Below are positions 28,401 to 43,842 of a stretch of 64,000 nucleotides of DNA, in pieces. The stretch comes from Erysipelotrichaceae bacterium. GTDB taxonomy: Bacteria > Bacillota_I > Bacilli_A > Erysipelotrichales > Erysipelotrichaceae. The notes under the pieces were generated by a model. The model searched no databases, was not told where the DNA came from, and was given only the letters and a program-made list of their open reading frames with translations. Location: NCBI GenBank assembly GCA_017405785.1, contig JAFQZR010000027.1, positions 124,001-188,000 of the forward strand. The letters are read 5' to 3'. The translations under genes were made by a program, and so were the position numbers. Each line of letters starts with the position of its first letter. Positions within the stretch are counted from its first letter, which is position 1.

Positions 28401-28751
28401 CTCACATCCATAGAACATATAATCCAGGCACGAAGGTTTGACTATAAAATCCTCAGCTACTCTGAATGATTTTATCGGCAGATACTTTCCAGCCCAGAGG
28501 AATACCCCGTTTTCAACCTGAGGGAATACTGTTCCGTGATATGGATTCCCGTAAATGTCAGTAATATCATATTCACCGGTATCAGAGATTTCATCTTCGC
28601 TTCTGATCAACAGCAATTCACCGGTATCAAGCAGAACACCATACGCTGTCCCGTCTGTCGGTGAAGCAGCTTTGACCTGAACATGCAGCACTGACATGCA
28701 AATCAAAAACGCCATCAGTGAAACTGCCAGATTTCTCAGCAATCTTTTCAT
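25452..28751 (-). CDS. Large secreted surface protein: leucine-rich DUF285 repeats, Ig-like domains, CWB2 anchor
   Basis: A 1,099-residue exported protein with a signal peptide (1-28, cut near VKAASP). Residues ~85-300 carry DUF285/BspA-like leucine-rich units (repeating MFYGCEQLETVSL, MFNGCNSLKNVTF, MFCNCYNLETIDL). A BIG2-type Ig domain spans ~335-415. A second, shorter leucine-rich block (~415-615) ends with TWTRQL, echoing TWTREF after the first block. Two related Ig-like segments (~617-790) follow. Residues ~795-1090 hold three CWB2 cell-wall-binding repeats (FGSNRYKTGFAIAE, LQGSNRYATNLEII, IAGTNRVDTSVKIA), which attach non-covalently to anionic wall polymers as in clostridial Cwp proteins. 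Likely an adhesin; target unknown. It is monocistronic with a strong GGGAGG site. Confidence 0.88.
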   Translation of the reverse strand: MKRLLRNLAVSLMAFLICMSVLHVQVKAASPTDGTAYGVLLDTGELLLIRSEDEISDTGEYDITDIYGNPYHGTVFPQVENGVFLWAGKYLPIKSFRVAEDFIVKPSCLDYMFYGCEQLETVSLERVDISLTTEMDGMFNGCNSLKNVTFPADMDTSKVVNFEYMFCNCYNLETIDLSAFDFSAVKSLSCMFNACYALKDIKFPKTLDVSKVEDFTSMFYHCDSLTELDLSSFNTVSAVNMNSMFSYCEKLKKLDISSFDTRNTTENGVIYMLGGLSKLEEIKLGKYFVNWNEIGLENGRWKNGSLIKTSEELISEYSSNAATWAGTWTREFDMIERLELSGYKPLMPGDASVIYFWTEPSNVKTDFIWSSSDESVLTVDENGTVYAQKVGEAVITARTTDGSNIEAKITVKVREDIAYGILSDDGELVLIRSKEKHETSPEEKVTVKGSDGKDYTGYVIGDIESDSPDWFNWTAERGVFIDSVKKLCIAEGFTIEPDDINWWLSGADMLEEVDLTGINTKRLTAFGAIFFEDKSLKKVNLGTMDTSSAEDMWDIFEGCSVIEEITFGESFTKYAGTLGLPVGNWTNGSVTYAADEFDKHFAESTEGLAGTWTRQLILAATFDITEDVIEIEAENGGEIPYVYTPDEATISIEWTSSDPDGLYVWPAGNFWAYTPGEYIVTGHTREGSDLTDTVKIIVTPKRYITKLDILEDEIMIEVNTSGNIPYEYTPSDLDPYIISWTSNNPDGLEVWTNGYFEAYAVGEYTVTAHTTDGSDLSDTIKIHVVERGTIPYDPSLYRIFGSNRYKTGFAIAEQVCSFWPDNKCDYFVVACGNNFADALAGSYLAAVKMAPILLINDDKAQEVADFIKERISKNGTIYILGGPAAVSSKAESILKKVGKIKRLQGSNRYATNLEIIKEAGMDVGAILVATGTNYADSLSASATGLPILLVKNSLDDTQKEFLNKYKGKKIYVIGGENAVSKAIETELKKYGEVKRIAGTNRVDTSVKIAQTFFNEPLFDVVAYSHDFADGLCGGPFAYMIGAPLLLTREENKDITQKYIDKQYHINGICLGGTARITDKVLRKLFSASSSIEINKLEWK

Positions 28752-28855
28752 AAAAACCTCCCTTTATCTATTATTGATAAACTGTTTTATACACATATTA
28801 TAATGTATTTTTCTGCCCATTTCTCAATTAAATACAACACAAACAACAAAACCAG

Positions 28856-28887
28856 AAGAAAAAAGCTGACTGGTGCAGATCAGCTTC
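28856..28887 (-). terminator. Terminator of the MATE gene
   Basis: Minus strand AAGCTGA-N10-TCAGCTT then TTTTCTTC. The rest of 28752-28940 holds no gene I can see. Confidence 0.8.
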
Positions 28888-28940
28888 TTCCTATAGAAAC
28901 ATTATTATTGAAAAGGAGATTAATAATATATGTTCAACAC

Positions 28941-30296
28941 TTATTCATTATTCTTAAGCCGGCTGACTTCTTTTTTTACTACCAGCTCATAGTAGACAAA
29001 TCCGATAATTCCGCAGCATGCCCAGGTCAGAGGATAACACCAGTAGATGTTCTGGATGACATGATTGTTAGCCAGGGAAATAGCTAACCATGCCTGTCTG
29101 ACAATCACCATGCTGAAGATGTTGTTGGCCATGTCAAACTTGGCTTTATGGAAACCTTTGTTGATTCCTGAGAACAGCTGATGCAGTCCCATGAATCCAT
29201 ACAGCGGCATGACTGTATGCAGGAAATCCACGATGACCTTGATGATTTCTTCATCAGGTGTGAATATTCTGGCCAAAACAGGAGCAAACATGTAGACAAT
29301 GAAACCCGGAATGATCGTAAGCGACATTACCAGGATCCGTGATACTGTAACACCCTTAACGGCTCTGTCATACTTTTTGGCTCCGATGTTCTGAGCAATG
29401 AATGTCGGAATAGCCAGACCCACACCCTTGCAGGCCAGCTGGGCAAACTGATCAATTTTCTGACCAGTCGGCAAGCCGGCTGTAGCAGCCTTACCGAAGC
29501 TGTTTATATATCTGTGGGTAAACAGATTGGCCACTGAGGTGATGCTTGACTGGATCGCTGCAGGCAAGCCTAAGGCGAGGACCTCCTTCAGCGTCCGCCA
29601 GTTTATATGCAGTTCTTTCAGGTTCAGAGCATATTCACAGTCCATTGACCGCATTCTTCTGAATACCAGTACTACCGAGATGAATTGGGCAATTATGGTA
29701 GCCCAGCCAACTCCATTAACACCCATCTTGAATACGGCGACAAATAACAGGTCAAGTACAATGTTGACAACACTGCTGATGACCAGGTGCCAGAACGGGC
29801 TCATGGAGTCACCGATGCTTCTGACAACAGAAGCTCCGACATTATAGATGGCAGTAAACAGCACGCCGAACATGTAGATACGCAGATAAGCAACTGAAGC
29901 ATCCATAATATCCCGGTCTACCTTAAGCCGTAACAGCATACCTCTGGCAAAGACGATACCCAGCAGAGCAACCGCAATACCAGCAATCAGAGTAAAGGTT
30001 ATGGTTGTCTGAATGGCTTCATGAAGACTCTTGTAGTTTCTGGCTCCGTAATGACGGGCAAAGACTACACCGACACCGGCTGATAAACCAGTGAAGAAGC
30101 CGACCAGGGTATTGCACAGGCTTGATGAGGCATTTACTGCCGCCAGGGCATCTCCGCTGATGAAATTCCCGACAACCATTGAATCAACACTGTGATAAAG
30201 TGTCTGAAACAGCTGTCCGATAAAAAGAGGTATTGCAAAGGCAATCAGAACACTGACAATGCTTCCTTCAGTCAGATCAATGTTTTTCTTTTTCAT
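28941..30296 (-). CDS. MATE family efflux transporter
   Basis: A 451-residue protein with 12 predicted membrane helices. It opens with the MATE hallmark IPLFIGQLFQTLYHSVDSMVVG and has the mid-protein repeat IQSSITSVANLFTHRYINSFG. It would export cationic compounds using a Na+ or H+ gradient. Substrate unknown. AAAGGGGGAA precedes the start. Confidence 0.92.
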   Translation of the reverse strand: MKKKNIDLTEGSIVSVLIAFAIPLFIGQLFQTLYHSVDSMVVGNFISGDALAAVNASSSLCNTLVGFFTGLSAGVGVVFARHYGARNYKSLHEAIQTTITFTLIAGIAVALLGIVFARGMLLRLKVDRDIMDASVAYLRIYMFGVLFTAIYNVGASVVRSIGDSMSPFWHLVISSVVNIVLDLLFVAVFKMGVNGVGWATIIAQFISVVLVFRRMRSMDCEYALNLKELHINWRTLKEVLALGLPAAIQSSITSVANLFTHRYINSFGKAATAGLPTGQKIDQFAQLACKGVGLAIPTFIAQNIGAKKYDRAVKGVTVSRILVMSLTIIPGFIVYMFAPVLARIFTPDEEIIKVIVDFLHTVMPLYGFMGLHQLFSGINKGFHKAKFDMANNIFSMVIVRQAWLAISLANNHVIQNIYWCYPLTWACCGIIGFVYYELVVKKEVSRLKNNE

Positions 30297-30402
30297 CTGT
30301 TTTCCCCCTTTTCAACTGTATTATACGATCTGCGTTTTTTCACTTTAGTCCTGGTTCTGCGTTTGTAAAAAGCAATTTCAGACAAGAACACTTCCAAAAA
30401 GC

Positions 30403-30428
30403 AGAAAAAGCGCTGTATCAACGCTTTC
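30403..30428 (-). terminator. Terminator of the Nif3-like gene
   Basis: Minus strand AAAGCG-N9-CGCTTT then TTCTGCTTTTT, overlapping the stop codon. Confidence 0.7.
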
Positions 30429-31269
30429 TCAGTTGATAATCAAATGTATCTCCTGACTGTATATAAATAACCTTAAGCTCATCATTGAAGAACTGCGGTA
30501 AAATCCTTGTAAGATATTTCATACCCAGCTCTTCAGCTGTAAAATGTCCCATTTCAAACATGACCTTATTCATTCCCATAAAGGCAGCATCCCTTACATA
30601 TTGAGTAAGAGTATAATCCACTATCTCAAACGGGATGATACAGTCTGCCTTCAGGGCGGCATCGATCTTAGGTAGATCATACTTATCCCATTCACTAGCA
30701 ATGACATGTTCCGCAAAGAAGACCGTCTTTATGACGGCATTTTTATTGCCGACAATACGCAGACCGTTCAGATTCCACTTCTCCATCAGTTCATCAGCTA
30801 ACTGCTCAGCTGTTGTTTCAGGTATTTCAAACCATAACGGTTTTTTAGGATTAGAACTGCAGTAAGGTTTCCAGCCCAATTCCTGCATGGTCCCGTAGAA
30901 GATCATGTCGTTTCTTAATCTTTCCGTAATAAACGGACCGCCATTGCCGTGCATGTGATCGTGATCTCGCCAGATACACAGATTGTTGTCTCTGATGTAT
31001 TTCAGTTTAGCCTGAAGCACTTCATTGTCAACTTCATCAACGTTAAAAGTTTTCTCATAGTTATAAGTTATTCCCTCATGGGAAATGATCAGGTTGACCC
31101 CTTCCTTTACGGCTTTGCGCAGCACATCAAAGTTTGCGGTAGCCGTTACCGCAATACCGGTGCATTCCTGATCAGGATCACCATACAGAACTTTGTCTCT
31201 TGTTTTCTTTCCTTCAGTATATGGCTGGTGGAATTCGTGCATTTTCTCTATTACTTCTGATATCTTCAT
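30418..31269 (-). CDS. Nif3-like dinuclear metal protein
   Basis: A 283-residue Nif3/DUF34-family protein. Segments seen are TATANFDVLRKAVKEGVNLI, ISHEG and FEMGHFTAEELGMKYL (C-terminal metal side), with a DHDHMHG cluster near residue 104 that adds metal ligands. The family binds two metals in a hexameric ring; its reaction is debated. It lies 6 bp after the nitroreductase gene and is cotranscribed. Confidence 0.8.
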   Translation of the reverse strand: MKISEVIEKMHEFHQPYTEGKKTRDKVLYGDPDQECTGIAVTATANFDVLRKAVKEGVNLIISHEGITYNYEKTFNVDEVDNEVLQAKLKYIRDNNLCIWRDHDHMHGNGGPFITERLRNDMIFYGTMQELGWKPYCSSNPKKPLWFEIPETTAEQLADELMEKWNLNGLRIVGNKNAVIKTVFFAEHVIASEWDKYDLPKIDAALKADCIIPFEIVDYTLTQYVRDAAFMGMNKVMFEMGHFTAEELGMKYLTRILPQFFNDELKVIYIQSGDTFDYQLRKR

Positions 31270-31275
31270 ATCTTC

Positions 31276-31803
31276 TTACCATTTATTGAAATGAACTCTG
31301 TCTTCTTCATAATCCAGATGAGGCTGTCCTGTCTTATTTTCAGCAGGATATCCGAAAGATATGATTGAATGAGGTGTTACTGTATCTGGAAGACCGAAAT
31401 ATGCTTTCTGAACATCAATCTTATCCTGCTGTGGCCAGATGCCCAGCCATACAGAACCTAACCCGAGGCTTTCAGCTGCCAGTATCATGTTCTGACCGGC
31501 AATGGAACCGTTTATGATCCGGTATTCAGGGGCTCTCTTAAATTCTCTTTCGCCATCTGCACAGAGCAGTACCGAGAATGCGCTGCCTGCCATGATGGTT
31601 CCGGCGCGTCCGCTCGCCCGGGCCCATTTCTGCAGTTCTTCAGGATCATTAACCACCACAAAACTCCAGTCTCTGGCATTTACCGCGCTTGGACCACTCA
31701 TACCGCAGCGTAAAATGGTTTTTATTGTTTCTTCATCTGCTTTCTGTTCCGTATACTTTCTGATGCTTCTTCTTTTCAGGATCGTTTCAACTGTTTCTGA
31801 CAT
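31276..31803 (-). CDS. Nitroreductase family FMN oxidoreductase
   Basis: A 175-residue flavoprotein. FMN-binding residues lie in ILKRRSIRKYTEQKADEETI and CGMSGPSAVNARDWSFVVV near the N-terminus, and ESLGLGSVWLGIWP and ISFGYPAE in the second half. It reduces nitro compounds or quinones with NAD(P)H; the physiological substrate is unknown. GGGAGGAAA precedes the start. First gene of a two-gene operon with the Nif3-like gene. Confidence 0.9.
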   Translation of the reverse strand: MSETVETILKRRSIRKYTEQKADEETIKTILRCGMSGPSAVNARDWSFVVVNDPEELQKWARASGRAGTIMAGSAFSVLLCADGEREFKRAPEYRIINGSIAGQNMILAAESLGLGSVWLGIWPQQDKIDVQKAYFGLPDTVTPHSIISFGYPAENKTGQPHLDYEEDRVHFNKW

Positions 31804-31885
31804 ATTTCTTTTCCTCCCATGCTTTTCAGTTTTATCTTACGGTTTTCAGATGTTTACTTCTTTTCTGTTTTTTCGTTATCCAAAA

Positions 31886-31908
31886 GAAAAGTGTTACATG
31901 AACACTTT
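31886..31908 (-). terminator. Terminator of the PTS-amidase operon
   Basis: Minus strand AAAGTGTT-CATGT-AACACTTT followed by TCTTTT, just after the ChbG-like stop. It separates this operon from the nitroreductase gene. Confidence 0.82.
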
Positions 31909-31910
31909 CT

Positions 31911-32771
31911 TTACATATTGCCGATCCACAATGGTGAATCAATTTCTTTCAGGTGCTGCTGGAATTCATCTGTTCCATATAAAGCATCGCGGAAGTTTAT
32001 TAGTTCCACATGGTTCTCAATGATCCAGTTTCTGAACTGATCACTGACGGCAGCTTCATGCTCCTTGCAGCGGTGCAGATTGCAGCGTGATTCCGCCATG
32101 ATATGAGCATCACAGAAACCGGGATGCCAGCCATAGAAGAATATCTCTTCCCTGTCAGTCCATTCAACACTGATCATCTTTTCCAGTGGATCATATTCAT
32201 CAAAGTATTTCAGATCAAAGCCCTTATCCTTATCCGGCTGGATATGCACAGAGATTATGTTCCTGTCAGCCCATCTTGGATCTGCTACACGGGAAAACGG
32301 GTGGTTACCGTCTGTGCTGAACACATCATACGCGGCAACATACTTTTTAACCACCTCATTGTAGGCCTTCTCCATCGGCAGATCACTGTTCATCAGAGAA
32401 GCCACATCAGGATAACGTCCCAGACACCTGTAACACAGCCGCATTTCAGCTTCGAATTCACGGTATGCATCCTCATAAGTAACATCTTTGCGGAATTCAT
32501 TGTGTCTATGACGCCACTTGAATCTTCCTTCTTCATCTACCATGCTTGGTACTTCCTTACCAAGTACAGGTGATTCCCACAGATGTCTGTGCCATCCTAC
32601 TGAAAGCCATGGTTTCTCCTTAAGTATTTTGAGTTCTTCAATTACATGAGGTGCATCAAACATCACATCTGCACTGCAGCCGACACCGCTGTCAAACACG
32701 ATGTTGACACCCATGTCATAAGCTTGTGTATAGCCTACATCATCAACTCGATAAATCAATCTCTTTCTCAT
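31911..32771 (-). CDS. ChbG/YdjC-like carbohydrate deacetylase
   Basis: A 286-residue metal-dependent deacetylase of the ChbG/HpnK (YdjC) family. Metal-site segments are YRVDDVGYT (Asp at ~10-11), SVGWHRHLW (His pair ~60-62) and YGWHPGFCD (His ~225). Relatives remove an acetyl group from N-acetylglucosamine-containing disaccharide phosphates after PTS uptake. It is last in the PTS operon, which supports action on the imported phosphorylated substrate. An AGAGGT site precedes the ATG. Confidence 0.82.
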   Translation of the reverse strand: MRKRLIYRVDDVGYTQAYDMGVNIVFDSGVGCSADVMFDAPHVIEELKILKEKPWLSVGWHRHLWESPVLGKEVPSMVDEEGRFKWRHRHNEFRKDVTYEDAYREFEAEMRLCYRCLGRYPDVASLMNSDLPMEKAYNEVVKKYVAAYDVFSTDGNHPFSRVADPRWADRNIISVHIQPDKDKGFDLKYFDEYDPLEKMISVEWTDREEIFFYGWHPGFCDAHIMAESRCNLHRCKEHEAAVSDQFRNWIIENHVELINFRDALYGTDEFQQHLKEIDSPLWIGNM

Positions 32772-32774
32772 TTT

Positions 32775-33251
32775 TTATTTACCTCTCCCCAATCTTTCTC
32801 TGATCTTTTCCATAGTTGATGGTTCACTTTTATCAGGCACTGACTTAACCAGCAAATTATAGGCTTTCAGATACCTGGAAGTTCTAACCGGGATAACCGT
32901 ATCATCGTTAAGCGTAAAGTAAACCTTATTGTCAGATGCATCAACAGACCACTGCTTAAGATCAATAAAAGATATCTGATAAGCTTCTGATGAATCCCTG
33001 AGGTTGTAAATGATCACTGAATCATCATAAACATCCATAACCGGCTTATCTTTAATGAAAAGTAAACCGATAAAAGCCAACAGCAGAAAGAAGATACCTG
33101 CGAAAATACTGTATTTGGTTTTCAGCAGTAACAGACAGATGCCGAGAACACCCCGTGTAACAATCTGTCCGATCGGTCGAAGTGATATGCTGCCCTGTAA
33201 TGATCCAGTTATTCTGCTTTTATCTCTGTTTTCATATTTGATATTGTTCAT
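32775..33251 (-). CDS. Two-helix membrane protein with PH-like domain (paralogue)
   Basis: A 158-residue protein with two membrane helices (about 31-47 and 50-66) followed by a beta-rich domain beginning KDKPVMDVYDDSVIIYNLRD. It is a clear paralogue of the gene at 19700-20236. Its place between the amidase and the deacetylase, 3 bp and 11 bp away, suggests a role tied to this operon, but no function is known. AAGGTG precedes the start. Confidence 0.72.
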   Translation of the reverse strand: MNNIKYENRDKSRITGSLQGSISLRPIGQIVTRGVLGICLLLLKTKYSIFAGIFFLLLAFIGLLFIKDKPVMDVYDDSVIIYNLRDSSEAYQISFIDLKQWSVDASDNKVYFTLNDDTVIPVRTSRYLKAYNLLVKSVPDKSEPSTMEKIRERLGRGK

Positions 33252-33262
33252 AATACACCTTA

Positions 33263-34480
33263 CTAAACGATCGTCATGATCTTATCGATATACTGCTGTA
33301 CCTCCCGAGGTGGAATACCGGAAGATATGGTTTCAAAAGTCATTCCATACAGTTCTTCCGGAAACAGGTATCCGGCCTTGCCGTTGGTATATCCAAACAC
33401 CAGACAGCATTCTGCCTTACTTGCATTCTTTATCTGCAGTCCGAATTTGGAAGCAAGTTCAGCCGGAGTGACGATAATTTCCAGATCTTTCAGCTTTATG
33501 GCATCCGCAAACCAGTCAGCTGTTACTCTGTCTAAACCTGAGAGTTTCTCTAAGGCAGGCATCATGGACTTGAGAACCTTGATTCTGTCAAATTCTGTCG
33601 CTGTTTTCAGTTCTTTCTGGGAATAATATATTTTTCTTTCCACATCCAGATGATCTACAGTTACATCAACATGATGGGTTATGGTCTTTATCTCAAGTAA
33701 TTCCAGATCAAGTGGATTATTTACTTCAATGCTCACCATTTCCCTTGCCATGCCTTTGGAAATACGGTCAAGTTCCACAAAGTCATTACCCTGTCTGGTA
33801 TTACGGGTTGAGCAGTCCCCTGCTGCTCCGACGATCATGTGCGGATAATAGCCTTTGAGCTTCTGATATTCTTTGGCTGTATTTCCGGCAAATTCACCTG
33901 TCAGCAGATCGTTTTCAGGTGTTACAGCTGTTGAATGCACTGCCCAGTTACAGATTCCTGTTACAACCTTATCATCACTGTCACGGAATTCCACCAATAT
34001 GACTTCATTGTCAGCCAGGGTGTTCTCCAGTACACGGCTGTTATAATAGCCGGTAATGACCCTCTTGCCCCAGTAAGCTTTTACTTCCGTAAGATTATCA
34101 AGACCGTTTCTGTAACCGTTGATGCCCAGCTGTATCAGCCAGTCATAGTATTCCTGATTGAAGTGCTCATTCTGTTTCATCTGATCACCGACAGACTGAT
34201 GATTGTGCGTGGCACTGACCAGTACCAGTTTTCTGTCAATTCCGAATTCGCTATTAAGCCTGGCACTCAGCTCTTCATAGAAGCCTTCTTCCACGCTGAT
34301 CCAGTCAGTGGAATAAAGGAATATCATTGATCCGTTGACGTCCAGCAGAGACATCTGTATATAGATATCATCGTGTACTCCTGCAGCCGGGAGCTTTCTC
34401 AATGGCGATTTATACCCTGTTAAATAAAAAGGAGTATAATCCGGAGTAACACACTGTCTTTCGGTATATGCTCTGATCAT
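33263..34480 (-). CDS. Neutral/alkaline ceramidase-like amidase
   Basis: A 405-residue protein with the N-terminal domain of neutral ceramidases. Zinc-site and active-site segments are SATHNHQS (His ~91-93), NWAVHSTAVTPENDLLTGEF (His ~182) and GAAGDCSTRNTRQGND (the Ser-containing loop). No signal peptide is present, so it works in the cytosol, and the C-terminal domain of secreted ceramidases is reduced. It likely cleaves an N-acyl amide of an imported molecule. Part of the PTS operon; GGAGAAAG precedes the start. Confidence 0.75.
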   Translation of the reverse strand: MIRAYTERQCVTPDYTPFYLTGYKSPLRKLPAAGVHDDIYIQMSLLDVNGSMIFLYSTDWISVEEGFYEELSARLNSEFGIDRKLVLVSATHNHQSVGDQMKQNEHFNQEYYDWLIQLGINGYRNGLDNLTEVKAYWGKRVITGYYNSRVLENTLADNEVILVEFRDSDDKVVTGICNWAVHSTAVTPENDLLTGEFAGNTAKEYQKLKGYYPHMIVGAAGDCSTRNTRQGNDFVELDRISKGMAREMVSIEVNNPLDLELLEIKTITHHVDVTVDHLDVERKIYYSQKELKTATEFDRIKVLKSMMPALEKLSGLDRVTADWFADAIKLKDLEIIVTPAELASKFGLQIKNASKAECCLVFGYTNGKAGYLFPEELYGMTFETISSGIPPREVQQYIDKIMTIV

Positions 34481-34492
34481 ACTTTCTCCTTT

Positions 34493-34909
34493 TTAATCGT
34501 CATCTACATCTTCACTGTCATTAGCCAGCAGGATTTTGGCATTGACAATACCCTGCTGTCCTACTGCCGCCAGATGATCAATGTCATTTTGTGAGAACTC
34601 TCTGGTTGCCAGTAATTCCATGATCATCGGCAGATTCATGCCGGCGATAAGATCAACCTTGTCATTCACCAGCAAGGCCGCCTGATTGAACGGTGTTCCT
34701 CCTAAAAGATCTGCGAATATGATCACACCGTCATCGTTCATGAGTTCATTGACTTTTTCCTTCAGCTGGTCACCGAACTGATCGGCACCCATGTCGGATG
34801 TCAGTGACAGGGTTTCAAACTGAGGAAGCTGTTTTCCGAAAAACATCGTCAGGGAGTCTTTGACACCTGCTGCCATGCCGCCATGGCTTATCAATAAAAT
34901 ACTCTGCAT
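34493..34909 (-). CDS. Mannose-family PTS IIA component
   Basis: A 138-residue IIA of the mannose (PTS-Man/EIIA-man) class. The phosphorylation site is His9 in LLISHGGMA, and the conserved ADLLGGTPFNQAA follows. It receives phosphate from HPr and passes it to IIB. It is separate from IIB, as in the glycated-amino-acid PTS group, and displaced downstream of the hydrolase. The acidic C-terminus is short. Confidence 0.92.
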   Translation of the reverse strand: MQSILLISHGGMAAGVKDSLTMFFGKQLPQFETLSLTSDMGADQFGDQLKEKVNELMNDDGVIIFADLLGGTPFNQAALLVNDKVDLIAGMNLPMIMELLATREFSQNDIDHLAAVGQQGIVNAKILLANDSEDVDDD

Positions 34910-34912
34910 GAA

Positions 34913-35989
34913 TCATACCTCCTCATCTTCCTGAACTTGTTTCTTAAATACCAGGTCTGGATTGTATCTTAATGCGGTCCACTGATGAATGTTCTTTGAT
35001 GCTGATTTTACAGTGACACCGTTTCTTTCAAATTCATTGTATGTATCGTAATTATACGGATCCTTCATGATCGCACAGGTCGTGTTATAGAGATTTCTCA
35101 GACATACCGGATGCAGATCCCACGGACCGTGTCCCGGGAAGATGCCGCTGAACTCTCTTAAGCGAGGCTGTAGTTTTTCCAGTTCATCATGCATGGCTTC
35201 GACCGTGCACATTTCTCTGTAAGGAGCACCCTTAGGCTTCCCGCCGACTCCGGTGCAGTCACCGACAAAGAAGCATCCTGTCTGATGATCAAAGTATCCG
35301 CACTGTCCTGCTGTATGACCCGGAATCAGAATAGCTTCCACGATGTAGCCCTGCCCCAGATCAAATTCATAATGATTCGGAATACCGACGATTTCATAAG
35401 GATGGTATTCAATCACATCCCGGGGATCAAATTCGGTATACAGAGGCTGACCCGGTGCCACTTCTTCTCCGGCTACCATAACAGGATGATCAGTCTGATT
35501 GAACAGATAATCCCAGATGTGCGGATTGTTCTTGCTCTGCATGTCAGGTACTTCATATTCATGGCAATAGGCTCTTTCAAACTGAGCGTTGCCATAAGCA
35601 TGGTCAAAGTGAGCATGCGTGTTGGCTACAACTATTTCTTTGTCACCGACAAGGTGTCTGATCAAACCCTTGAGGTCACCAACACCGAAGGAAGTATCAA
35701 TGATCATGCATTTTTCCGGGCCGTCGATCAGATACATCCAGACATCGCCGGCACCATCGAAGGTATCGTTATACAGTGCCCAGGTGTTATCTCTGACCTT
35801 ATAACATTCTGTATAGGGATTGATTTCAGGATAGAATTCCTTTAGAGTGCTGTATTCTCTTAAGACCTTCATGAATGACCATCTGAACGGATGTTCAGCT
35901 TCAAAGATCCTTTCTCTGGATTTTAGTTCACTTTTAATAGCTCTGGGAATTGAGTTGATATCATTTCCGTTAAAGAGTTTTCCAGGCAT
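34913..35989 (-). CDS. Metallo-beta-lactamase-fold hydrolase
   Basis: A 358-residue MBL-fold protein. The zinc motif is NTHAHFDHAYGN, followed by PGHTAGQCGYF, FFVGDCTGVGG and FPGHGPW. Such enzymes hydrolyse thioesters, lactones or phosphodiesters; the N-terminal ~80 residues are an extra segment. It sits 3 bp upstream of the PTS IIA gene, so I infer it processes the imported substrate. AAAGGAGGAA precedes the start. Confidence 0.85.
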   Translation of the reverse strand: MPGKLFNGNDINSIPRAIKSELKSRERIFEAEHPFRWSFMKVLREYSTLKEFYPEINPYTECYKVRDNTWALYNDTFDGAGDVWMYLIDGPEKCMIIDTSFGVGDLKGLIRHLVGDKEIVVANTHAHFDHAYGNAQFERAYCHEYEVPDMQSKNNPHIWDYLFNQTDHPVMVAGEEVAPGQPLYTEFDPRDVIEYHPYEIVGIPNHYEFDLGQGYIVEAILIPGHTAGQCGYFDHQTGCFFVGDCTGVGGKPKGAPYREMCTVEAMHDELEKLQPRLREFSGIFPGHGPWDLHPVCLRNLYNTTCAIMKDPYNYDTYNEFERNGVTVKSASKNIHQWTALRYNPDLVFKKQVQEDEEV

Positions 35990-36036
35990 ACCGTTCCTCC
36001 TTTTATCTTATAGACATTAAGTCTTTGCTTCCGTAT

Positions 36037-36531
36037 TTACTGCTGTGTACTTCTGAGCAGATATCTCACCAGTACTTCCATTGTTTCCTCATTGCCCCCA
36101 AAGGCATGCTGAGGGATGATGAGATTGCTGTTGTCATCGAAGGCAATCACCATCAGATCATAATATGCAACAAATGTAACGGGATTCTTTACTTCCCCGT
36201 TTACTGTAAGAACATCGTCTTTCAGTCTGATATTTAAATTTCTGTATTCAAATCTGTCTTTTTCTATCTTTCTTCTGGCAGCTGTAACTGCTACATCCTG
36301 GAACATGCGAGGTGCCAGAAATGTTGCCCAGAAAAGAGAAAGGAAGACAGCTGTCATGATCCATAATACAGAGTTGTACAGTTTAAGTGCTATCAGCAGG
36401 GCTGCCAGAAATGCCGGTACCCAGATTACCGCGAATATTCTTGCGATTCTTGTTTCTCGGGAATTGGCTGAAATCATTTCATAATACCTGACGGCATCAT
36501 CTTCTGTGAGTCTGTAATTAAGATTGAACAT
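36037..36531 (-). CDS. YcxB-like membrane protein
   Basis: A 164-residue protein with two membrane helices (about 33-50 and 53-70) and a C-terminal beta-rich domain (LNIRLKDDVLTVNGEVKNPVTFVAYYDLMVIAFDD), matching the YcxB-like C-terminal pattern. Function unknown. It sits between PTS IID and the hydrolase; AAGGAAG precedes the start. Confidence 0.65.
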   Translation of the reverse strand: MFNLNYRLTEDDAVRYYEMISANSRETRIARIFAVIWVPAFLAALLIALKLYNSVLWIMTAVFLSLFWATFLAPRMFQDVAVTAARRKIEKDRFEYRNLNIRLKDDVLTVNGEVKNPVTFVAYYDLMVIAFDDNSNLIIPQHAFGGNEETMEVLVRYLLRSTQQ

Positions 36532-36563
36532 AAATGTCTTCCTTTTCTTTCAATGTTAATAAA

Positions 36564-37406
36564 TTAAGCTAAGATCTTTGTTAAGTAACCGACGATTGCT
36601 ACCGGGATCATCCATAACATGATCTTGGTTGCTGACCACTTCTTCTCCTTAACCAGATAGTAAACGATGAAGCATACTACCAGTGATAAGAACTTAGGGA
36701 AGAAGGCGTCGAGAACGTCTTTCTGAATGTTGACAACTGTTTCACCGGCTGTGGCAACCAGAGCTGTCTTAACGTTCATGATACCAGCAAGAACGCCGCC
36801 GATAACGGTGATACCCAGAGCTTCGAAACCCTTGATAGCACGATCCTTGAGGTCAGAACCCATCAGTAATTCAGCACCGGCAATACCTGAGCTGAAACCG
36901 ACTTTGAATAATCCGTATGATAAAGCTGTATTGATTGCTGTATAGGATACGATCATGAATAACGGGCCTAAGATGGAACCTGTAGCTGAGCTTAAGCCGA
37001 TACCGATTGAAATCAGGATCGGTGTTAACAGAGCCTGGATAAGGGAGTCACCTAAACCAGCTAACGGACCAGCTAAGGCCTGCTTGATTGACTGAATCAG
37101 GTCGTTGGTAATGGTAGGGTCTTTTGCTCTTTCAACTTCCATACCGACAACGATACCGTAAATAACAGCACCTAAACCCTGCTGAGTATTGAAGAATACT
37201 TCATGGTTACGGCATAATTCCTTCTGCTTTTCCTTATCACCAGGATAGATCTGATCTGCAACCTTGGCTAACATGACAACCATTGAACATCCTAACATAC
37301 GCTCACGGGTAAAGTTCATTGGAACGCCCCAGACGTAGCCCCAGAATGCATCATTGACAAACTTCTTGTTTTCCTTTAAGGAATTTAATCTTTCTAATTC
37401 TGACAT
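36564..37406 (-). CDS. Mannose-family PTS IID component
   Basis: A 280-residue IID membrane subunit. Characteristic are the N-terminal ERMLGCSMVVMLAKVADQIY, FNTQQGLGAVIYGIVVGME and LAGPLAGLGDSLIQALLTPI. It pairs with IIC to form the sugar channel. Its ATG overlaps the IIC stop (TAATG). Confidence 0.93.
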   Translation of the reverse strand: MSELERLNSLKENKKFVNDAFWGYVWGVPMNFTRERMLGCSMVVMLAKVADQIYPGDKEKQKELCRNHEVFFNTQQGLGAVIYGIVVGMEVERAKDPTITNDLIQSIKQALAGPLAGLGDSLIQALLTPILISIGIGLSSATGSILGPLFMIVSYTAINTALSYGLFKVGFSSGIAGAELLMGSDLKDRAIKGFEALGITVIGGVLAGIMNVKTALVATAGETVVNIQKDVLDAFFPKFLSLVVCFIVYYLVKEKKWSATKIMLWMIPVAIVGYLTKILA

Positions 37407-38203
37407 TAATCATCATCCTCCTGTAATGCAACTGTGGCTGACGGTGTGAACTGGAATACCAGATATCCGATAACGCAGCCAATTAATGTGACAGCAATAG
37501 TGCTCCAATTCAGTCCGGCAACTAAAACGAAACCGAATAAGAAGTAGATCCACTGTAACGGTTCATGAATCAGGGTAACCATCAGGATCATGAAACCGAT
37601 AGCCGGTAATAAGCTGGTAAATGTTGACATGATCTTGTTGACCTGTGGCGGAATAGCAGCAACGATATTTGTTACAACTGCTGAACCGGCCAAACAGAAG
37701 ATTACAACAATAACGAAGTTCTGAACGAATGTCCATACATGACCGACAACCGGGAACCACCATTTTTCGCCGATAACACCTTTTTCAATGATGTCATCCT
37801 GCTTGTGCAGAACTGCAACCTTGACCATGTTGCCGATTGTGCCGAGGATATCGTTGACTGGTACGAATGCCAGAGCGATAGTCAGAGTTTCAGCAGCAAG
37901 GGTCTCATAATCAGCACTGCTGTTGGAAGTCAGAGCGATCGGTAAGGCAAACCATAAGGCTGTATCAATTCTCGGAAGTGTTGATACACCGCCGATAGCC
38001 ATCTGGCCGATGTAAGCGGCCTGAATGATCGTTCCGACTAACAGGGCTTTGGAAGGCTGTCCCATGATGAGCCCGATAAACATACAAGCGACCAGAGGCT
38101 TGTTCATGATGTTCTGACTGAGCCATCCTAACGGGAACATGGAAGTGCCGATAAGGAATGCGAACAGTCCTAACAATAAAGCCTGTACAACTGTAATTTG
38201 CAT
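37406..38203 (-). CDS. Mannose-family PTS IIC component
   Basis: A 265-residue IIC membrane subunit with about eight helices. The signature LVACMFIGLIMGQPSKALLV and GGVSTLPRIDTALWFALP match IIC of this class. It carries the sugar across the membrane during phosphorylation. Upstream AGGAGGA precedes the start. Confidence 0.93.
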   Translation of the reverse strand: MQITVVQALLLGLFAFLIGTSMFPLGWLSQNIMNKPLVACMFIGLIMGQPSKALLVGTIIQAAYIGQMAIGGVSTLPRIDTALWFALPIALTSNSSADYETLAAETLTIALAFVPVNDILGTIGNMVKVAVLHKQDDIIEKGVIGEKWWFPVVGHVWTFVQNFVIVVIFCLAGSAVVTNIVAAIPPQVNKIMSTFTSLLPAIGFMILMVTLIHEPLQWIYFLFGFVLVAGLNWSTIAVTLIGCVIGYLVFQFTPSATVALQEDDD

Positions 38204-38257
38204 AAGTATTTATCCTCCTCTCCATCTATCATTAAGTAAAATACTTTAATGCCTTTT

Positions 38258-38746
38258 TTAATATTTTGACTTTACGTCTTTCCAGTAGAAGTTCTCGGCT
38301 CCGTCGCCTGGGAACTGCTGGAAGAATAAGTTAACTCCCAGCTCATCCAGTTTCTTTATGGCAGCAAGCTGTTCGTTGTCGATCCAGATGTCCTTGCGGA
38401 TCAAGAATCCTTCATTTTCCATCGGGATATTGGCAATGTTAACTTCTTTATACAGATCAGGAATTCTTTCATAGAGTTTTAAGATCGTTGAAGGTCTTCT
38501 GGCTATGATCAGGGTTCTCTTGTCATTGACCATGCATTTTGAGATAGGCGTTAAGGCATCTTCAAATGTATGAACGGTAACTCTGACTCCTGATGGGGCA
38601 GCCATTTCGAAGATCCTCTTGAGCATAGGGTTGTTTGCGGTATTATCATCAACGCCTATAACTCTGTTAATCTTGTTCATTGGGATGATCTTAGTCTGAC
38701 ACTGACCGTGAATCAGACGGTCATCAACACGGATAAATGTAATCAT
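38258..38746 (-). CDS. Mannose-family PTS IIB component
   Basis: A 162-residue IIB with phosphorylation site His13 in RVDDRLIHGQ, followed by IPMNKINRVIGVDD. It transfers phosphate from IIA to the incoming sugar. First of the PTS block IIB-IIC-IID. AAAGGAAAAAG precedes the ATG. Confidence 0.93.
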   Translation of the reverse strand: MITFIRVDDRLIHGQCQTKIIPMNKINRVIGVDDNTANNPMLKRIFEMAAPSGVRVTVHTFEDALTPISKCMVNDKRTLIIARRPSTILKLYERIPDLYKEVNIANIPMENEGFLIRKDIWIDNEQLAAIKKLDELGVNLFFQQFPGDGAENFYWKDVKSKY

Positions 38747-38786
38747 GTTCTTTTTCCTTTCATTGGGTTTTATCTACCTTAATCTT

Positions 38787-38816
38787 ACTGACTGAAAAAT
38801 CAATCATCAGTTCAGT
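38787..38816. promoter_or_regulatory. Inverted repeat upstream of PTS IIB
   Basis: ACTGACTGA-N11-TCAGTTCAGT lies in the 105 bp gap between the MFS and IIB genes. There is no T run, so it is a candidate operator for the upstream PRD regulator rather than a terminator. A weak TTGATT lies within it. Confidence 0.45.
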
Positions 38817-38851
38817 TATTTCCTTTATTCAAGGCATTTTGTGAAACCACG

Positions 38852-40081
38852 CTAGTTCATCTTGTTAGCAGCGAAATCAGTTTCGATCTGATCAAGTCTG
38901 CCTCTGAACGCCAGCACACAGACAATGGCTATAAATACCGGGACAGCCATGACAAGCCACATGGCAGGAACATAACCAAGTACACTGGCAACATATCCGC
39001 AGACTGCAGGTCCCAACAGAGTAGCAGAGTCGAGCGCTATATAATTTGTACTGGATGCAGATCCTCTGCGGGATGTCGGTACACTCTTCATGCACATTGA
39101 CTGTAAGGCCGGCTGAACAGCACCGTAACCAAATGAGTTTATTACGGCTACTGCCAACAGATGCCACAGTCTTGTTGATAAGCCGATCAGAATCAGGGAA
39201 ATACCAGTTAACCGGCAAGCCGGTATGGCAATCTTTACAAAACCATATTTATCATTAAGCTTGCCAACCAGCGGTTTGGTCAACATTAATGCCAGTGCAT
39301 TAACCGTGAAGTACCAGGTTGCCCCTTCGATGCCTCTTTCCTCGGCATAAACCAGGAAGAAGGCATTTATTGAAGTGAAGCCGAATGATACCAGAAATAC
39401 TATCAGTGCCGGGATCAGAGCTTCCTTAGCTATCATGTTATTGAGATTAATGACCATTTTTCCGGTTCCCCTGTTTGGAACCTTGACAATGAAGGCAACC
39501 AGGAAGATGGATGTGAACATCATGAGTGATGTCAGAATGTATGTTGTGTTATAGCCGAAGGCATTGCTTAACCGCTTGCCTACGGTTGGTCCAATGGCCT
39601 GAGCAACTGACTGGGCTAAGGCGAAGATACCCATTCCGGAAGAGAATGACTCTTTTGGCATGCAGTCAGCGACGATCGTCAGCAGGCAGGCATTACCAAA
39701 CGCATTCCCTATTCCCTGTAACAGTCTGAAGGCTTTCATGATGGTTATGACATTGATTCCGGTTATTTCCGCCAGTTTTGGTGAAAAGCTGAATCCCAGA
39801 TATGCTGTACCAAACAGAGCCATTGCCATCTGCAGCAGATTCTTACGGTTATAGGCATTCATTGCCGGACCGGCAATGAAACGGAAGATCAGAGCCGTCA
39901 GAGCAAACATGCTCATCAGGGTACCGATCTGATCAGCTGGTGCTCCGGTTGACTTGGCATACAGCGACAGCATTGAATTGCTCATCTGTGCACTCATATT
40001 GAAAGCGATGCTGCAGACAAACACGCTTATAAACATCGGATTCCACAGTTTTTCAGGCTGCGTCCAGTTCTCTTTTTCCAT
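38852..40081 (-). CDS. MFS transporter
   Basis: A 409-residue major facilitator with 12 predicted helices and a central loop after helix 6. Seen are LIFRFIAGPAMNAYNRKNLL (helix 2-3 motif), LQGIGNAFGNACLLTIVAD and the second-half LVGKLNDKYGFVKIAIPACR. The start at 40081 is preceded by AAGGGAG; an in-frame GTG at 40090 sits on that ribosome site. It lies between the PTS regulator and the PTS genes, and may move the same substrate or a product; direction is unknown. Confidence 0.85.
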   Translation of the reverse strand: MEKENWTQPEKLWNPMFISVFVCSIAFNMSAQMSNSMLSLYAKSTGAPADQIGTLMSMFALTALIFRFIAGPAMNAYNRKNLLQMAMALFGTAYLGFSFSPKLAEITGINVITIMKAFRLLQGIGNAFGNACLLTIVADCMPKESFSSGMGIFALAQSVAQAIGPTVGKRLSNAFGYNTTYILTSLMMFTSIFLVAFIVKVPNRGTGKMVINLNNMIAKEALIPALIVFLVSFGFTSINAFFLVYAEERGIEGATWYFTVNALALMLTKPLVGKLNDKYGFVKIAIPACRLTGISLILIGLSTRLWHLLAVAVINSFGYGAVQPALQSMCMKSVPTSRRGSASSTNYIALDSATLLGPAVCGYVASVLGYVPAMWLVMAVPVFIAIVCVLAFRGRLDQIETDFAANKMN

Positions 40082-40116
40082 AAAAATCACTCCCTTATGC
40101 TTTGATTATGGCCGAC

Positions 40117-40149
40117 AAAAAAAGGAAGATCCGTCCAGAATCTTCCTTT
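40117..40149 (-). terminator. Terminator of the PTS regulator gene
   Basis: Minus strand AAAGGAAGAT-N9-ATCTTCCTTT followed by TTTTG, between the regulator and the MFS gene. Confidence 0.9.
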
Positions 40150-40172
40150 GGTAAAGTATATTCCTGATTTGG

Positions 40173-42107
40173 CTATTCGGTATACATTATATCTGCCAGC
40201 AGCTGATAATCTCTTTCCCTGTCATGGCTGATGTATGTATCATGTGAATGGATCAGAGAACCGATCCTGCCACTGATAGTTGCCTTATCAAATATAGAAT
40301 TACCGGCAACATTGAACACTATTATTTTGTTTACGATATTACCGTCGATGATGATGGCATCCTTCAGACAGATGATCTTTATGAAAGTCTTTCCCAGATA
40401 GTCAATGACTGTATTTATGAGATAACAGTTGTTGTTTCTGGTTCCTCCGTAAATACTGTTCTTCCTGGCTGCTTTCTGCAGGAAAACCTCTGTTCCCTCA
40501 TTATCAGGCAGAATACTCTTTATATATGGAATTATATCTGCCTCATAGGTAATCTGATCTGTATAATACAGGTCATTCTTAGTAAATATCTTTCTGAACT
40601 GTTTTTCACTGATGGAGAAAGTCAGCCCCATACGGTCAATGGCTTTCCGGCTGCGGAAGAATTGCATGTTGAAAAAAGGCAGTTGAGGGTACTGATCCTT
40701 AAGAATAGTTATGTCTGAAACAATACCCCGGTACTCTCTCATATCAAGGTTTTTCAGATCGAGATACTCCTTTGGTACATATTCAATGAAGTAGTTTGTA
40801 TTCTTGCGGTTAAGCACACTGGCCTGGGTACGTGAATAGAAATATCCTCCATCCGACACGACCATGATCTTCTTTTTCTGAATGCTGGTCTGCCGGCTGG
40901 TGAAATTGAGAAACATGTGATAAAAGTAGGACACATCATAAGGAAGACATTTGATATCTGTCTCTTTTGTCAGGTATAGATAATATGAATAGCACATATC
41001 CAGAATCATTAATCCATCAGCCATCTGCTGGTGAACACTGGCGGCTATGACATGGTTATCCAGTAATGCAGAATAATAAAGATTATAAGTACCTCCGCAG
41101 AGATCCTTGTAAAGTACACTGACATCTCTTCCTTCAAGGTCGTATATTCTGCGCAGCTCCAGAAAGAAACCGTCAACGATCTTCTGAATCATTTCCTTTT
41201 CCGGCATTTCTACAAAAACAGGGAAACGGATCAGCCTGACACTCTTCAGGAAGATGCTCAGATACATCTCATCCTGAGTACTCAGTTCACTGCGCTGCAG
41301 ATACGGAAAGCTCTGATAGATATCCCTTACAACTTTTCTTTCTTCATCGATATTGACGGAAGTCAGACGTTCATTTGTTATAAGGAGCGGTGAATAACGG
41401 CTTCTGGTTGCACTTAACGCAATCATTACGGCAAAGCGTTTAAGTGCCCCATAGGAAAGAACGAAATCATGTCTGCGGATGACTGTTTCAATTGTTCTGA
41501 CAAGATTGTCCACCTTCCTGTCTTCAGCCAGAAACAGCTTTTCCCAGTCGGTTTCACGGTCATGGAAATAAACCTTGCTCTTGAAGTTATAATCATAATC
41601 TTCATGAAGCATGGCTACTCTGACATGCCATTCATCACCTTCAAGAGAGGTTCCCTTGTTGGTGCGGTTGACTAATGACAGCTTATATCCTTTCAGGATC
41701 TCTCTGACGATTTTGATATCACGGCGGATCGAGGATTCCGAACAGCTGCACTGATCCATCAGTTCATAGATGCTGAGATTCTTCTTTGCCAGAAAACAGC
41801 GGATGATATAATGAACTCTTTCATCCTGACTGTCCTGATAAAACAGATTACGGTTGTGCATGCCCTTGATTGTCTCAACAAAGGAACTGTACCGTTCTCT
41901 GTCATTTATGCTCATCTGATATCCGCTTCCCGGATAGGAAATGATCTCACAGCCGTAATCCTGACAGATCAGATTGAGATCATCGATCTCTTTTTTTACG
42001 GTTTTCAGTGAGGTATTGATCATGCTGGCTATTATGTTGGCATTTACCGGTGTTTCATGATTGAAAAGCACATTAAGTACCGAAACCTGGTTATTGAACA
42101 GTTCCAT
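40173..42107 (-). CDS. PRD/BglG-type transcriptional regulator with degenerate PTS domains
   Basis: A 644-residue regulator of the ManR/LicR layout. Two N-terminal helix-turn-helix regions (about 8-50 and 110-150; IIASMINTSLKTVKKEIDDL and CSCSESSIRRDIKIVREIL) are followed by PRD-like helices, an IIB-like domain (KKIMVVSDGGYFYSRTQ) and a IIA-like domain at the end. Expected phospho-acceptors look altered: the IIB loop has VSDGG rather than a Cys, the PRD phrase YLSIFLKS lacks His, and no clear IIA active His is seen. It probably regulates the PTS operon downstream. An ATG at 42113 is also in frame; 42107 fits the GAGAGGA spacing better. Confidence 0.82.
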   Translation of the reverse strand: MELFNNQVSVLNVLFNHETPVNANIIASMINTSLKTVKKEIDDLNLICQDYGCEIISYPGSGYQMSINDRERYSSFVETIKGMHNRNLFYQDSQDERVHYIIRCFLAKKNLSIYELMDQCSCSESSIRRDIKIVREILKGYKLSLVNRTNKGTSLEGDEWHVRVAMLHEDYDYNFKSKVYFHDRETDWEKLFLAEDRKVDNLVRTIETVIRRHDFVLSYGALKRFAVMIALSATRSRYSPLLITNERLTSVNIDEERKVVRDIYQSFPYLQRSELSTQDEMYLSIFLKSVRLIRFPVFVEMPEKEMIQKIVDGFFLELRRIYDLEGRDVSVLYKDLCGGTYNLYYSALLDNHVIAASVHQQMADGLMILDMCYSYYLYLTKETDIKCLPYDVSYFYHMFLNFTSRQTSIQKKKIMVVSDGGYFYSRTQASVLNRKNTNYFIEYVPKEYLDLKNLDMREYRGIVSDITILKDQYPQLPFFNMQFFRSRKAIDRMGLTFSISEKQFRKIFTKNDLYYTDQITYEADIIPYIKSILPDNEGTEVFLQKAARKNSIYGGTRNNNCYLINTVIDYLGKTFIKIICLKDAIIIDGNIVNKIIVFNVAGNSIFDKATISGRIGSLIHSHDTYISHDRERDYQLLADIMYTE

Positions 42108-42201
42108 ATTCATTTCCTCTCACTGTGATTATAGCACAAATGCAAAAAAGATCCCTGTACCCTTTTTTCATGATATGATAGGAATATCAGGAGATTTGGA
42201 A

Positions 42202-43107
42202 ATGAAAAAAAGACTGCTTATCATCAACAGCATTACCGGCGGAGGCCGCAATAAGGCCAGAGCTTTTGATCTGATCAACAGACTATCCGTTAATGATTAT
42301 GCAGTTACAGTCTTCCCTGTGAGTACAGATAATCAGATAGAACTGGCTGATTACCTTAAGGATAATCAGTATGACAGTGTAGTCTGCGTTGGCGGTGACG
42401 GAACTCTTAACCGTACTGTCAATGAAGTTATGAAGACTTCATATCGTCCTGTCATAGGCTATATACCTTCCGGCACCTGCAACGACTTTTCCAAGAACCT
42501 GCCTTTATCCACTGATTTCTATCAGGCCTGTAAAATCATCAACAACGGAAAGACCGTTTCCTATGACCTGGGGCGATTCAATGATCAGTATTTCATGTAT
42601 GTGGCATCATTCGGCTCCATTTCCTCCGTCAGCTACAATACCGACCAGCAGTCCAAGAACTTTCTGGGATATGCTGCCTATGCAGCTTATGCCTTATCCA
42701 TGCTGCCGGAGATACTGTCAGCCAAATGTCATCTGAGGGTTGAAACCGATGAAGAAACCTTCGAAGGCGATTATCTTTTCGGTGCCATAGCCAATTCCCT
42801 GTCGGTAGCCGGGGTAAAGATCAATACCATGTCATATGAAGATCTTATGGATGGAGAATTCGAACTGCTACTGGTTAAGTGTCCTGAACACATTCAGGAT
42901 GTCGGTTCCATAGCCATAGCTCTGCTTAACAGCGAGTTTGACAACCCTTATCTGGAATTCCGCAAGATAAAAAGAGCACATATTTATACAACCGCAAACA
43001 CCGAATGGACACTGGATGGCGAGTATGGCGGCAATCCAGAGGAAATCACCTTTGAGATACGGGAAAAAGCCATCGATATCGCAGTTGATACCAGAAGAAT
43101 AAAATAA
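42202..43107 (+). CDS. dgkB: Diacylglycerol/lipid kinase family protein
   Basis: A 301-residue lipid kinase of the DAGK catalytic family. The ATP-binding region is VVCVGGDGTLNRTVNEVM, followed by IGYIPSGTCNDFSKNL. It phosphorylates diacylglycerol or a related lipid to recycle lipid intermediates of wall polymer synthesis. The frame extends to 42061, but 42202 has AGGAG nine bases upstream and matches the family start. The DgkB/YegS choice is by similarity only. Confidence 0.88.
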   Translation: MKKRLLIINSITGGGRNKARAFDLINRLSVNDYAVTVFPVSTDNQIELADYLKDNQYDSVVCVGGDGTLNRTVNEVMKTSYRPVIGYIPSGTCNDFSKNLPLSTDFYQACKIINNGKTVSYDLGRFNDQYFMYVASFGSISSVSYNTDQQSKNFLGYAAYAAYALSMLPEILSAKCHLRVETDEETFEGDYLFGAIANSLSVAGVKINTMSYEDLMDGEFELLLVKCPEHIQDVGSIAIALLNSEFDNPYLEFRKIKRAHIYTTANTEWTLDGEYGGNPEEITFEIREKAIDIAVDTRRIK

Positions 43108-43126
43108 CCTCTCACGAGGTTATTTT
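43102..43126. terminator. Convergent terminator
   Basis: AAATAACCTC-TCAC-GAGGTTATTT overlapping the lipid kinase stop and shared with the DUF5131 gene. Confidence 0.88.
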
Positions 43127-43842
43127 CTTTCATAATTGATATTTGCTTTTTTAGCCTGGCTATGCTGGCGTTCACGCGGTATCTTATATGTTTTACCATC
43201 CTTGCGGAAGTTAGCTCCGGTCTGATGAAAATGGAATGAGACATTATTCGCAATACACTGTCTGCGTGTATCAAGTATCCAGCTGTAATCACATACCCTG
43301 GCGTCATCTCCCGATTCTCCTCCGCAGCCGATCCATTCGATCTGGCCGTTTTTAAGATACTTATCCATGTCGATCGGGCCAAGCATCGGTTCCTGGTTAA
43401 CAGCCTTATGCTTTATCGGCAAGGACAGAAATATCGGCATTCTTTCATCAGCCATGGCCTGATTCTCTATTGTGCTTATGATCGTTACATGATCCCAGCC
43501 GTCTTTCCAGTCTTCAGGGATGCAGTCTATGAATCTTTCTATTCTTTTGGTGATAATGTGTATGTTCAGATCACTGCGGTATCTGATCATGTCCCATATA
43601 TCCTTTCTCCACTGGTCAGCTTCTTCAATGAAAAAATCGGAGGTCATGCAGCAGTATACCGTTGATCCCGGTCTGAGATAATAGGAACCGTCCCTGTGTC
43701 TTCTGATGCCCAGATTAAAATCATTTGTCCTGGTGACAATGTTGCTGTCCTTATCATACATTGAGTCGCGTCTGTAGACATAACAGTGCAGACAGCCGGC
43801 AGACTTCTTATGGCAGCCATGCCAAGGGTTCCATACAGGCAT
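43120..43842 (-). CDS. DUF5131 (Gp37/Gp68-type) radical-SAM-like protein
   Basis: A 240-residue protein of the DUF5131 family first named from phage. It starts with NPWHGCHKKSAGCLHCY: Cys10, Cys17 and Cys20 resemble a CxxxxxxCxxC iron-sulfur site. Later segments (TKRIERFIDCIPEDW, VSTIENQ-like ISTIENQAMADERMP, WIGCGGESGDDARVCDY) match the family. Function is not established. GGAGG lies nine bases before the start. Confidence 0.82.
   Translation of the reverse strand: MPVWNPWHGCHKKSAGCLHCYVYRRDSMYDKDSNIVTRTNDFNLGIRRHRDGSYYLRPGSTVYCCMTSDFFIEEADQWRKDIWDMIRYRSDLNIHIITKRIERFIDCIPEDWKDGWDHVTIISTIENQAMADERMPIFLSLPIKHKAVNQEPMLGPIDMDKYLKNGQIEWIGCGGESGDDARVCDYSWILDTRRQCIANNVSFHFHQTGANFRKDGKTYKIPRERQHSQAKKANINYERK

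Follow-up and report, generated by a model that had tools for sequence, protein, structure and literature searches.

A mannose-type PTS operon of an Erysipelotrichaceae bacterium with a cytosolic ceramidase-fold protein and an MBL-fold hydrolase: a candidate catabolic system

Results

Organization of the locus

The window, the 64,000-nucleotide stretch of Erysipelotrichaceae DNA analysed here, contains between positions 31911 and 42113 a run of long open reading frames, all on the minus strand, in which a complete mannose-type PTS is interleaved with genes for a ceramidase-fold protein (CER), an MBL-fold hydrolase (MBL), a YdjC/ChbG-like protein (YdjC), two small membrane proteins (sm1 and sm2) and an MFS transporter, with a regulator gene adjoining. 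The genes overlap or are separated by short gaps, and are transcribed in the order regulator, MFS, IIB, IIC, IID, sm1, MBL, IIA, CER, sm2, YdjC. Coordinates below are window positions, and Pfam assignments were judged against the curated cut-off (gathering score).

40173..42113, minus strand: regulator with HTH_11 and Mga domains (PRD/Mga-like architecture; domain scan)
40121..40149, minus strand: terminator-like hairpin with T-run, between the regulator and MFS genes (sequence pattern only)
38852..40090, minus strand: MFS transporter (PF07690, MFS_1, 164.3 bits, over cut-off)
38258..38746, minus strand: PTS IIB, mannose/sorbose type (PF03830, 115.4 bits, over cut-off)
37406..38203, minus strand: PTS IIC (PF03609, 132 bits, over cut-off)
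36564..37406, minus strand: PTS IID (PF03613, 229.4 bits, over cut-off)
36037..36531, minus strand: sm1, small membrane protein, hydrophobic at about residues 27-74 (no Pfam family)
34913..35989, minus strand: MBL-fold hydrolase (Lactamase_B, 51.7 bits, over cut-off)
34493..34909, minus strand: PTS IIA, mannose type (PF03610, 92.8 bits, over cut-off)
33263..34480, minus strand: CER, cytosolic ceramidase-fold hydrolase, 405 aa (profile match and predicted structure)
32775..33251, minus strand: sm2, small membrane protein, hydrophobic at about residues 35-72 (no Pfam family)
31911..32771, minus strand: YdjC/ChbG-like protein (Pfam YdjC, 64.3 bits; cut-off 29.7)
31276..31803, minus strand: nitroreductase-family protein (PF00881, 84 bits; syntenic)
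30418..31269, minus strand: DUF34/NIF3 protein (PF01784)
28941..30296, minus strand: MATE transporter (PF01554, 181 bits)

The gene set given in a preliminary description of this DNA is thus all present as long open reading frames, with the PTS, MBL, YdjC and MFS proteins over their Pfam cut-offs, and the operon encodes neither a glycosidase nor a sugar kinase, as that description had stated. Its end point at YdjC agrees with a weak hairpin 3′ of the YdjC stop codon, which suggests that the core operon may end there. The syntenic block is longer: nitroreductase, DUF34/NIF3 and MATE genes (28941-31803) follow in the same direction, in an order that is identical in the nearest relative (L005/L039), and the latter two are also found in a second relative (L006). 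The nitroreductase gene probably belongs to a separate or read-through unit. Terminator-like hairpins follow the regulator (40149-40121), NIF3 (30430-30404) and MATE (28892-28857) genes, and the first of these, lying between regulator and MFS genes, indicates that the regulator probably forms a unit by itself, the operon beginning at MFS. The MFS gene is kept in the nearest relative (89%) and, divergently, in L006 (60%), and sm1 is conserved beside the orthologous PTS. Just downstream of the MATE gene, 25452-28751 encodes a large secreted protein with repeated MFxGCxxLxxV-like motifs (read from the translation) and an apparently cell-wall-binding C-terminal part.

The regulator had been called PRD-type. 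A domain scan detected HTH_11 and Mga alone and no PRD domain (PF00874), while its relatives have a weak EIIA_2 domain and one of them a PRD, so that "PRD/Mga-like" is a fair label; adjacency is what ties it to the enzymes. No Rfam match was found in 28000-43500, and CcpA cre-like sites with at most one mismatch numbered 40 in the whole window, with 31.9 expected, a count near enough to expectation to be uninformative.

The PTS and phosphosugar genes of the genome

All four PTS subunits score over their Pfam cut-offs for the mannose type, and the phosphoacceptor histidine motifs of IIB (DDRLIHGQ) and IIA (LISHGG) can be read in the sequence. Every subunit falls below the cut-offs of the NCBIfam equivalogs for PTS of defined specificity (AgaVWEF, galactosamine, Man). 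HPr is encoded elsewhere in the genome, and together with family membership this makes import and phosphorylation of the substrate by the PTS well supported. Two NagB and three NagA proteins over cut-off are also encoded elsewhere in the genome. A muropeptide substrate processed via MurQ was set aside, as the genome contains no MurQ over cut-off.

A cytosolic protein with the neutral ceramidase fold

As a single sequence, CER scores 26.5 bits against Pfam Ceramidase_alk, below the cut-off of 32.1, and single-sequence searches of solved structures returned no match for CER or MBL. A profile of 25 CER homologues matches the Pseudomonas aeruginosa neutral ceramidase (2zws) over both halves of the fold with an E value of 2.7e-22. 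The predicted structure (pLDDT 92.9) found neutral ceramidases as its only strong Foldseek matches (best E value 1.7e-25), and in VIA-align it was superimposed on a neutral ceramidase over 371 residues (Z 36.9, rmsd 3.0), the best unrelated chain reaching Z 7.1; the matches above Z 8 were ceramidases only, a list that does not exclude other families. Six positions of CER align with catalytic positions of 2zws and are conserved in most of 99 CER sequences: H92 (98), H94 (98), H182 (97), S224 (85), E341 (92) and Y371 (97). In 2zws these positions include the zinc ligands and the catalytic serine.

CER is cytosolic, as it has no hydrophobic segment, and the earlier assignment of a ceramidase-like protein is confirmed by profile and predicted structure alike. 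We conclude that CER is a cytosolic member of the neutral ceramidase superfamily for which the name ceramidase is unjustified: in the strict sense a neutral ceramidase reaches the gathering score, has full length with the C-terminal domain and is secreted, none of which applies to CER. The ceramidase fold could act on esters or lactones as well as on amides.

A gene for a diacylglycerol-kinase/YegS-like lipid kinase (42061-43107) diverges from the regulator gene. A sphingolipid pathway that would join this kinase to the ceramidase fold was set aside, since in L005 and L006, the two nearest relatives, no homologue of the kinase was found next to the operon.

An altered metal site in the YdjC-like protein

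The zinc ligands of Klebsiella ChbG are D11, H61 and H125, while D10 serves as the base and H206 as the acid (PMC9402603). YdjC of the window keeps D10, D11, H61 and H216, the histidine of the HPG motif, and the motif of zinc ligand H125 is absent from it and from the Man-PTS-linked homologues examined. The preliminary assignment of a ChbG-like deacetylase therefore stands for the family and falters at the zinc site, and deacetylase activity should not be assumed from this sequence. A histidine two residues past H61, H63, is found in YdjC and its nearest homologues, and is not present in the homologue at L119; judging by its position, it may replace H125 and restore a CE4-like metal site. In the same genome, a second Man-PTS operon (L219, contig C2, 8000-26000) encodes a NagA-like amidohydrolase and a YdjC protein in which H61 and the H125 motif are both missing.

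CER and MBL are linked to PTS genes across the family

Of 195 genomes sampled from the family, 90 encode CER homologues, and these represent 31 of 59 genera; at lower sampling, homologues were also found in further families belonging to the order and class. The neighbourhoods of about 90 homologues were examined. Among those with scores above 400 bits, 38 of 52 have a PTS IID gene on their own strand no more than 5 kb away. Random placement, calculated with IID density at an upper bound, predicts 4.4 (P ~2e-30); because the genomes are related this P value is only a guide, yet 33 genomes contribute to the count. All linkage P values presume random gene placement and independent genomes. Linkage of MBL to PTS genes was seen independently, at 18 of 25 places (2.1 expected, P ~5e-15), and CER lies at most 8 kb from MBL at 10 of 30 MBL places (1.0 expected, P ~1e-8, or 1.8e-6 without the window's genus). 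Both the CER-PTS and the CER-MBL pairings span several different PTS lineages, and CER, MBL and YdjC occur together with two other PTS, one at L040 that is more distant and one at L042 that is unrelated. The neighbourhood conservation that had been put forward as a check on the preliminary description is thus found for CER and the PTS.

Several CER homologues without a Man-PTS adjoin SIS-domain sugar isomerases and RpiR-type SIS regulators, and further distant homologues lie near MurQ, NagA or NanE. The former pairing is a second recurrent one, found with distant CER homologues at L209-L216, L171, L178, L182 and L183. At L043 (7486-12954), a tandem pair of CER genes accompanies a glucose-type PTS EIIBC, an EIIA and an amidohydrolase. 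The SIS, glucose-type PTS, MurQ, NagA and NanE neighbours support the view that, in these bacteria, the substrates of the superfamily belong to the phosphorylated amino sugars or sugar conjugates.

The DUF34/NIF3 protein is a recurrent partner of the CER and MBL PTS operons, and a survey of DUF34 (PMC8469502) makes no mention of PTS operons. CER operons with DUF34/NIF3 were seen at L045, L047, L049, L052, L139 and L143, several of which also encode a Cof-type HAD phosphatase.

MBL is the constant enzyme of the orthologous PTS

A search with the window's IID found orthologues of 62-89% identity in nine other genomes, and two further loci at 47-49%; with orthologous PTS loci defined by an IID at least 60% identical, there are ten including the window. 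MBL is encoded at all ten, which marks it as the constant enzyme, with CER and YdjC as recurrent additions. Only the four nearest of the ten (G000, G098, G610, G618) have CER of the window type (72-82% identical) in the operon. At three loci that are intact, in G078, G104 and G030 (L122, L123/L237 and L124), the PTS, sm1, MBL and MATE are present and the operon includes neither CER nor YdjC. G078 and G104 have a separate PTS-CER-NIF3 operon close by, and in G120 a distant CER gene lies about 5 kb downstream. The loci in G069 and G005 are interrupted by contig ends.

These patterns weaken the proposal that two amidases define the substrate, in that one of them lacks a zinc ligand and the orthologous PTS keeps MBL, often without CER or YdjC; what remains of it is CER as a hydrolase in a PTS-fed operon. 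The binuclear metal motif of MBL is complete (HxHxDH at H125, H127, D129 and H130, with distal H225, D244 and H287). MBL reaches none of the curated lactonase cut-offs, and a structure search with its model, modest in confidence at pLDDT 74.7, returned MBL folds of a general kind.

Discussion

A proposed route for the PTS substrate

We consider it probable that the operon catabolises a PTS substrate that carries hydrolysable groups, by import and phosphorylation followed by cytosolic metallo-hydrolysis. Our starting points are the computed gene set, folds, conserved catalytic residues and conserved linkage, from which we infer the order of steps. The mannose-type EIIABCD would import and phosphorylate the compound, using the general PTS proteins of the cell. 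MBL would then make the cytosolic hydrolytic cut that is common to every version of the orthologous PTS, and CER, whose zinc site and Ser224 correspond to those of neutral ceramidase, and YdjC would strip further groups, most likely N-acyl ones. The product would join the common phosphosugar pool and, if it is glucosamine-6-phosphate, could pass to glycolysis through the two NagB proteins encoded elsewhere. Should the product indeed be a common phosphosugar, no kinase, isomerase or glycosidase would be needed in the operon. MFS, MATE or both may export the released moiety. The amide chemistry, the amino-sugar nature of the substrate and the export step all belong to the interpretive part of this scheme, and the absence of CER and YdjC from three intact orthologous PTS loci counts against it.

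An N-acyl amino sugar is a plausible substrate. A more specific version, in which the acyl group is other than acetyl (e.g. glycolyl or longer), CER removes this group, YdjC removes acetyl, and glucosamine-6-phosphate or a similar product is passed to NagB, is possible and on the unlikely side. The conserved neutral-ceramidase active site of CER, the distant CER homologues near SIS, MurQ, NagA and NanE, and the presence of NagB in the genome are consistent with it, whereas the orthologous PTS-MBL loci without CER and YdjC and the altered metal site of YdjC argue against it, and such a scheme gives MBL no step. MBL would have the leading part if the PTS substrate were a lactone, ester or other conjugate that it opens, with CER cleaving an ester or lactam elsewhere in that compound. 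UlaG, which also has the MBL fold, opens ascorbate-6-phosphate. This route would account for a complete binuclear metal site in the sole hydrolase found at all ten orthologous PTS loci; we regard it as unlikely, given that MBL scores under every curated lactonase cut-off and that its modestly confident model resembles MBL folds in general.

The recurrence of MATE near PTS-MBL loci (14 of 25 MBL loci, compared with 7 of 46 CER loci without MBL; Fisher P 0.0008) and of nitroreductase at some loci could instead reflect detoxification or modification, in which a glycosylated toxic compound is imported and dismantled and the aglycone leaves via MATE or MFS, growth on the sugar being secondary. We hold this to be quite improbable: energy-coupled import would be an unusual first step of detoxification, MATE genes are common and have no assigned substrate here, and several intact PTS-CER loci lack MATE. 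That an ordinary sugar PTS merely neighbours unrelated hydrolase genes, as variable gene order and the absence of CER from orthologous PTS loci might suggest, is very improbable indeed in view of linkage counts in which same-strand CER-PTS and MBL-PTS pairs far exceed random placement and CER lies close to MBL in several PTS lineages.

Returning to the catabolic route with PTS import and cytosolic hydrolysis, we propose more tentatively, and with somewhat less than even confidence, that CER represents a new cytosolic class of the ceramidase fold acting on PTS-phosphorylated N-acyl amino sugars or sugar conjugates in many Erysipelotrichaceae and with several PTS types, and that the window's operon, with MBL and an altered YdjC, constitutes an undescribed catabolic pathway. 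The earlier remark that its author knew of no described pathway with this gene set agrees with the open-access papers searched, in which we found no account of the set, of PTS-linked ceramidase-fold enzymes or of a NIF3-PTS pairing. A fold characterised as a ceramidase, with lipid substrates, recurs here as a cytosolic partner of sugar import in gut bacteria. Finding the substrate of CER would assign a function to an enzyme family that is widespread and unannotated, and would show what nutrient the Erysipelotrichaceae use; a targeted assay is possible because co-occurrence names MBL as the constant enzyme.

Relation to known systems

In the Aga, Gfr (glucoselysine/fructoselysine) and Dga (glucosaminate) systems, a Man-type EIIABCD is combined with cytosolic enzymes that dismantle the phosphorylated substrate. 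The window's operon resembles them in joining a Man-type EIIABCD to cytosolic enzymes, and differs in that it encodes no deglycase, ammonia-lyase, aldolase or AgaS-type enzyme and that its PTS falls below the AgaVWEF and Man equivalog cut-offs. CER shares with the neutral ceramidases of P. aeruginosa (2zws/2zxc) and human (4wgk) the fold of the whole protein (Z 34.5-36.9) and the zinc and serine positions, but at 405 aa, compared with 630-670 in the solved enzymes, it lacks the C-terminal domain; with less than 20% identity, no secretion signal and a place in a sugar-PTS operon, it is not expected to act on ceramide. The window's YdjC has family and PTS-operon context in common with ChbG/YdjC of the chitobiose PTS operon (Klebsiella ChbG, PMC9402603; E. 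faecalis EF_3048, 2i5i), as well as D10, D11, H61 and the HPG histidine, whereas zinc ligand H125 and the HxDSHH motif are missing, the PTS is of another type and no NCBIfam equivalog applies. The operon is probably of a known type, the PTS catabolic operon, and what sets it apart is an unusual and repeatedly recruited set of hydrolases.
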